Assembly (NCBI GenBank): GCA_009760855.2
Contig: WPIO01000086.1
Coordinates: forward strand, 1,103,001 to 1,167,000
Source of the DNA: Cristatella mucedo
Lineage: Eukaryota > Bryozoa > Phylactolaemata > Cristatellidae
Length of the DNA stretch: 64,000 bases
Direction of reading: 5' to 3'
The position numbers were made by a program, and so were the translations under genes. Position 1 is the first letter of the stretch, and every line of letters starts with the position of its first letter. The notes beneath the pieces were generated by a model. It did not search any database. It was not told the origin of the DNA and saw only the letters and a program-made list of their open reading frames with translations. Of the stretch, positions 1,653 to 46,271 are shown piece after piece.

Positions 1653-1863
1653 ATTTCGTTTGCGACTTCAGTCATCGTCGTGGTGTCGAGGCAGGATGGC
1701 ATGGCACTGCTCTACGCTTGCCTGCTGGGCGCGATGCTGATGCTGGCCGCTCACGGTCGCCGCACTTGTGCTAGGGTGTGGCCCTTCTACCTTGTCCTGC
1801 TTGTCATTCTACTGCCGGCTCAGTACTTGGCCACCGTGGGGCTGCCACCACTGCTCTGCTCTC
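1653..1863 (+). CDS. Piezo: Piezo exon 1 of window (blade transmembrane segments)
   Basis: Encodes residues 1-70 of the fragment. There are two strongly hydrophobic stretches (LLYACLLGAMLMLAA and FYLVLLVILLPAQYL) followed by VGLPPLL, the position where Piezo blades have a membrane helix before a YPW motif. The donor is GTGAGT. The acceptor AG directly follows a (TTA)n tract that is the tail of a LINE fragment, so the usual C/T-rich tract has been replaced by repeat sequence. The reading frame is fixed by the downstream phase. The upstream exon is outside the window. Confidence 0.85.

Positions 1864-46271: not shown

Follow-up and report, generated by a model that had tools for sequence, protein, structure and literature searches.

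The question raised by this locus is whether a 64,000-nucleotide stretch of the Cristatella mucedo genome (C672:1103001-1167000, hereafter the window, from an assembly of 572,011,866 bases in 688 contigs) carries part of an intact Piezo gene, and which exons of a model for such a gene are backed by homology. Gene models were built with a custom spliced protein-to-DNA aligner that accepts GT or GC donors and AG acceptors, keeps phase and forbids stops and frameshifts. The guide was a mouse Piezo1 sequence that is one residue short and matches PDB 5z10, presumably mouse Piezo, and its relatives. Intron penalties of 24 and 30 were used for the gene model, while a penalty of 9 was discarded for its many false micro-exons.

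Over the whole gene, the spliced alignment scored 2123.7, with 722 identities among 2042 aligned residues (35%). With the same aligner, the reverse-complement DNA scored 78.8, two shuffled guides 104.2 and 76.5 and the reversed guide 118.8, so that the Piezo signal is far above chance. The last open reading frame (45732-46271) matched Piezo_cap in Pfam with an E-value of 6.2e-37; in the PDB it matched 15 distinct Piezo sequences, with a best E of 1.3e-26. The protein joined from the in-window exons matched 18 distinct PDB sequences at E ≤0.001, 16 of which are named Piezo and two C10C5.1; the best match was a Piezo2 chain (E 4.4e-228). Together with five Pfam families, these results bear out the identification of the locus as Piezo in an earlier note on this DNA.

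The earlier note had placed the Piezo coding region between 1653 and the TAA at 46271, where we also find one open chain, on the + strand, and had counted 25 exons and about 1,500 residues, both more than we recover. With the penalty set to 30, the best path runs through 37 exons, of which 22 fall inside the window and 15 precede it, and at 24 the window holds 24 exons; all internal junctions in the joined list are GT-AG. The in-window coding sum is 3,783 bases, i.e., 1,260 residues and a stop, after extension of the alignment from its end at 46256 to the TAA. From the sequence matches we judge 20 in-window exons to be homology-supported, two of them on short motifs only (Table 1). The phase-perfect junctions and multiple-of-three sum offered earlier as evidence carry no weight, because any such model has both imposed on it, together with AG acceptors and exons free of stops. 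The claim that the gene exceeds 46 kb was right but too small: with its first homologous exon at window position -26904 (C672:1076096), the gene starts at least 26.9 kb upstream of the window and covers some 73 kb or more; no start codon was found. Upstream, where the note proposed to look for N-terminal exons, the 15 exons carry the protein into the N-terminal region, with pieces at -19864, -17238 and -7027 that look weak.

Table 1. Exons and candidate exons of the Piezo gene inside the window, with the evidence for each.
Feature	Position	Strand	Evidence
Piezo exon, blade, before YPW...KWLFLP stretch	1653..1863	+	Spliced alignment; tblastn E 8.8e-07
Piezo exon, YPWNISDLALQKWLFLPSN	2012..2113	+	Spliced alignment; PDB alignment; tblastn alone E 10
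Piezo exon, DFFQLLMVSLQMQVF	4312..4452	+	Spliced alignment; PDB alignment; tblastn alone E 11
Piezo exon, TM25-28 region, 5' end less certain	7280..7490	+	Spliced alignment; PF15917 E 9.8e-13
Piezo exon, TM25-28 region, 3' end uncertain	11020..11187	+	Spliced and PDB alignments; tblastn alone E 0.43
Piezo exon, TM25-28 region	11725..11874	+	Spliced alignment; PF15917 E 3.9e-9
Piezo exon, helix KKRKEEEEKNLEALQRKVERIQLRQ, taken to be the beam	13028..13191	+	Spliced and PDB alignments
Piezo exon, motif IRSGGAYMFEGDSDDDE, taken to be lateral-plug-like	16502..16627	+	Short collinear motif match in spliced, PDB and global alignments
Candidate linker exon without homology support	18268..18360	+	Spliced alignment and codon scan only; weak
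Candidate linker exon without homology support, likely spurious	24285..24339	+	Spliced alignment only; weak
Piezo exon, THU_Piezo1 unit, 5' end uncertain	29659..29977	+	PF23188; spliced alignment
Piezo exon, THU_Piezo1 unit	31879..32052	+	Spliced alignment; Pfam; PDB
Piezo exon, KYGLW motif after THU, 3' end uncertain	34109..34189	+	Short collinear motif match
Candidate linker exon without homology support	35687..35838	+	Seen at intron penalty 24 only
Piezo exon, THU9, 5' end 36078 or 36097	36097..36375	+	PF24874; spliced alignment
Piezo exon, THU9	36590..36758	+	Spliced alignment; Pfam; tblastn
Piezo exon, anchor with PFLLEMRISMDW	37082..37281	+	Spliced alignment; Pfam; tblastn
Piezo exon, anchor end, outer helix, cap start	37574..37855	+	PF24874 and PF12166 in joined protein; tblastn E 1.9e-13; spliced alignment
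Piezo exon, cap	42756..42925	+	PF12166 at C672:1145753-1145953, E 1.0e-8; spliced alignment; joined-protein Pfam
Piezo exon, cap	44665..44793	+	Spliced alignment; Pfam
Piezo exon, cap (LFPRFITVP)	45400..45482	+	Spliced alignment; Pfam
Piezo exon, cap to inner helix (FLTGYG)	45656..45878	+	Spliced alignment; Pfam
Last Piezo exon: inner helix, C-terminal domain, TAA	46019..46271	+	PF12166 E 6.2e-37 (genome 2.1e-34); PDB matches

Five Pfam Piezo families were matched in the right order across two joined proteins: Piezo_TM1-24 (PF24871, E 1.4e-106), Piezo_TM25-28 (PF15917, E 8.5e-52, with the profile matched to position 236 of 328 only), THU_Piezo1 (PF23188, E 1.7e-41), THU9_anchor (PF24874, E 1.9e-82, profile positions 2-238 of 238) and the family covering the cap, inner helix and C-terminal domain (PF12166, E 3e-74, profile positions 6-297 of 298). 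The long blade of repeated four-helix units is present through PF24871, PF15917 and PF23188, and the anchor contains PFLLEMRISMDW, which we take to be the PFxxE...W motif. In a global alignment to mouse Piezo1, with regional borders set by us and the N-blade and TM25-28 ranges overlapping slightly, identities were 266/851 aligned residues in the N-blade, 133/363 in TM25-28, 58/147 in THU8, 105/228 in THU9 and anchor, 82/249 in outer helix and cap and 49/91 in inner helix and C-terminal domain. The description of the gene as diverged needs to be qualified by these figures, identity to mouse Piezo1 being 35% over the whole gene and 49/91 in the inner helix and C-terminal domain.

At 14 mouse positions, which we presume to be the ones that matter, eight residues are identical (2464, 2472, 2476, 2482, 2493, 2494, 2496 and 2536), E2495 and E2537 of mouse are D here, and 2133, 2135, 2225 and 2456 differ, the first three of these numbers being doubtful with a guide one residue short. 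The PFxxE stretch and a lateral-plug-like motif are present, whereas the mouse KKKK stretch and the mouse cap-loop cysteines are absent at the aligned positions of the global alignment; the names and roles of these four motifs are those we assume for Piezo. Details of permeation or gating could differ as a result.

Two linkers interrupt this homology. The clasp and lateral-plug linker has 41 identities among 119 aligned residues, out of 290 in mouse Piezo1, and the second linker 10 among 24, out of 150, which supports the earlier claim of divergent cytoplasmic linkers. By spliced alignment, tblastn and Pfam, neither 16628-29658 nor, beyond the KYGLW exon, about 32053-36096 showed convincing Piezo homology, and a codon-bias scan of the linkers gave no clear exon; with so little homology support, the exons placed in both linkers are guesses, and two or three of them may be false. 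A fuller gene with 25 exons and about 1,500 residues, several of its real linker exons being invisible to mouse Piezo1, is doubtful. In its favor, the frame 18081-18378 is open and has a good donor (18360), and there are three further candidates, all weak (24155-24258, 34187-34261 and 35687-35838). The codon scores of these candidates are low, like those of other intron candidates, and nine linker frames, the four candidates included, had no match to a Piezo family in Pfam, with two giving sub-cut-off matches to other families. This Pfam test is a weak one, since the frames of the accepted exons at 16502 and 34109 were also unmatched; by itself the former exon is likewise weak in tblastn (E 0.42) and in the PDB alignment (-0.1 bits over its stretch). 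With tblastn, the mouse clasp piece 1300-1660 did no better in 16628-29658 than in the reversed-DNA control (best E 12 versus 9.9), while the piece 1740-2000 and the full guide reached E 0.75 and 1.5 there (controls 15 and 11) with scattered matches that were not collinear.

Lacking clear exons over 13 kb and 4 kb, the same linkers might be interpreted as damage in a decaying pseudogene or in a copy broken by assembly. Nothing positive points that way, and we regard it as extremely improbable. The 37 exons form one open chain over 2042 guide residues with no frameshift; damage would appear as broken or skipped exons, as the aligner forbids stops and frameshifts. Most of the examined pore letters are kept, and no other Piezo gene turned up among the best candidates scored when the 572 Mb assembly was searched with Piezo_cap, Piezo_TM25-28 and Piezo_TM1-24, three of the five families. 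Piezo_cap and Piezo_TM25-28 each gave two matches among the best candidates scored, all on C672 at the Piezo gene. Piezo_TM1-24 gave eight among the best 65 of 90 candidates, six on C672 (three over the cut-off) and two sub-cut-off on C645 and C614; the latter two were rejected as a second Piezo gene, both being GA simple repeats read as Glu-Arg runs. A single copy, which is expected of an invertebrate genome and not strictly defining, is accordingly what the three families point to among the candidates scored. A review (PMC11526382) describes Piezo as conserved across animals, with one copy in invertebrates and tunicates; PMC7003098 mentions Piezo at one point in the text and at two in the references.

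The origin of the DNA was approached through the mitochondrial code. Contig C688 (21,008 bases) contains a complete COX1 with 11 in-frame TGA, which indicates that TGA is read as Trp. When COX1 is translated under table 4, several Arg and Ile fall, by eye, on Ser and Met of PDB COX1 chains, which fits AGR as Ser and ATA as Met, i.e., table 5. Table 4 is the code of sponges and cnidarians, tables 9 and 14 are those of flatworms, and table 5 is found in most protostomes and a few others. The apparent fit to table 5 argues against an origin in sponges, cnidarians or flatworms and supports the invertebrate origin proposed earlier. On the same contig, the same open reading frames occur three times (L021 2537-3365; L022 1632-2460 and 3747-4575), once on the opposite strand, suggestive of a repeated block. 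COX1-like fragments on C166 (4375626-4376390), C83, C549 and C299 are probably nuclear copies of mitochondrial DNA.

Several other features were observed in the window. Open frames in the intron stretches 652-1530, 9790-10317, 27786-28103 and 43494-44225 contain two versions of one motif set, for instance HITPLLTDLHWLPVKQ...FGDRAFSSNAPKAWNSLP and SPLLKELGWLPVEQ...VGDRSFSSAGPRLWNSLP, which we presume to resemble the ends of LINE reverse-transcriptase genes; L013 also has a stretch resembling the second version. Long GA/CT and TG microsatellites lie at 8285-8479, 17434-17542, 33531-33620, 37296-37418 and 60813-61005, four of the five in modelled Piezo introns. The G+C content of 58001-60000 is 62%, and 57900-59400 contains long overlapping open reading frames on both strands; seven of these and one at 60299 had no Pfam match.

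Compared with the PIEZO2 and PIEZO1 chains of the PDB (9vee, 6kg7, 6lqi and 5z10), the Cristatella gene is alike in the five ordered families, PFxxE, the pore helix and the C-terminal domain, and unlike in its 35% identity to mouse Piezo1, its linkers that are not alignable and the absence of the mouse KKKK stretch and cap cysteines at aligned positions. The Piezo chains 9w7x, 9uox and 9uoy, which are taken to be invertebrate, match it strongly from THU9 to the C-terminus (E 2.5e-186, 2e-153 and 4.7e-148, respectively). Searched against the PDB at E ≤10, the mouse clasp segment matched 13 distinct sequences, 11 of Piezo1 or Piezo2 and two unrelated (E 0.68 and 1.1), and did not match 9w7x, 9uox or 9uoy. 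Failure of the clasp to align is therefore not peculiar to the Cristatella gene, and loss of the clasp was rejected as a novelty. The same search also missed three short cap chains and the Piezo1 chain 3jac, whose match to the guide began only at query residue 926, so that the clasp test depends on the deposited sequence. That the linkers encode lineage-specific intracellular modules which, with the missing KKKK stretch and the altered cap loop, lead to unusual gating or regulation seems to us quite improbable.

We conclude, with a probability of about 0.96, that a Piezo gene of an invertebrate bilaterian, apparently intact and present as a single copy, has its C-terminal part in the window and most likely encodes a trimeric, stretch-gated, non-selective cation channel. 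The analysis shows orthology, the Piezo domain order, an open reading chain and conservation of most of the examined pore-region letters. Following established Piezo biology, the predicted protein would assemble as a homotrimer whose curved blades sense membrane tension; tension would open a central pore made of the outer helix, inner helix and C-terminal domain beneath the extracellular cap, and this pore would pass cations non-selectively. The gene is an ordinary Piezo ortholog, the expected copy of a well-known channel with no surprising feature found, and it opens no long-standing question. Its value lies mainly in annotation, as it provides a near-complete model, some 73 kb long, of the Piezo gene in an invertebrate genome and separates homology-backed junctions from guessed ones.
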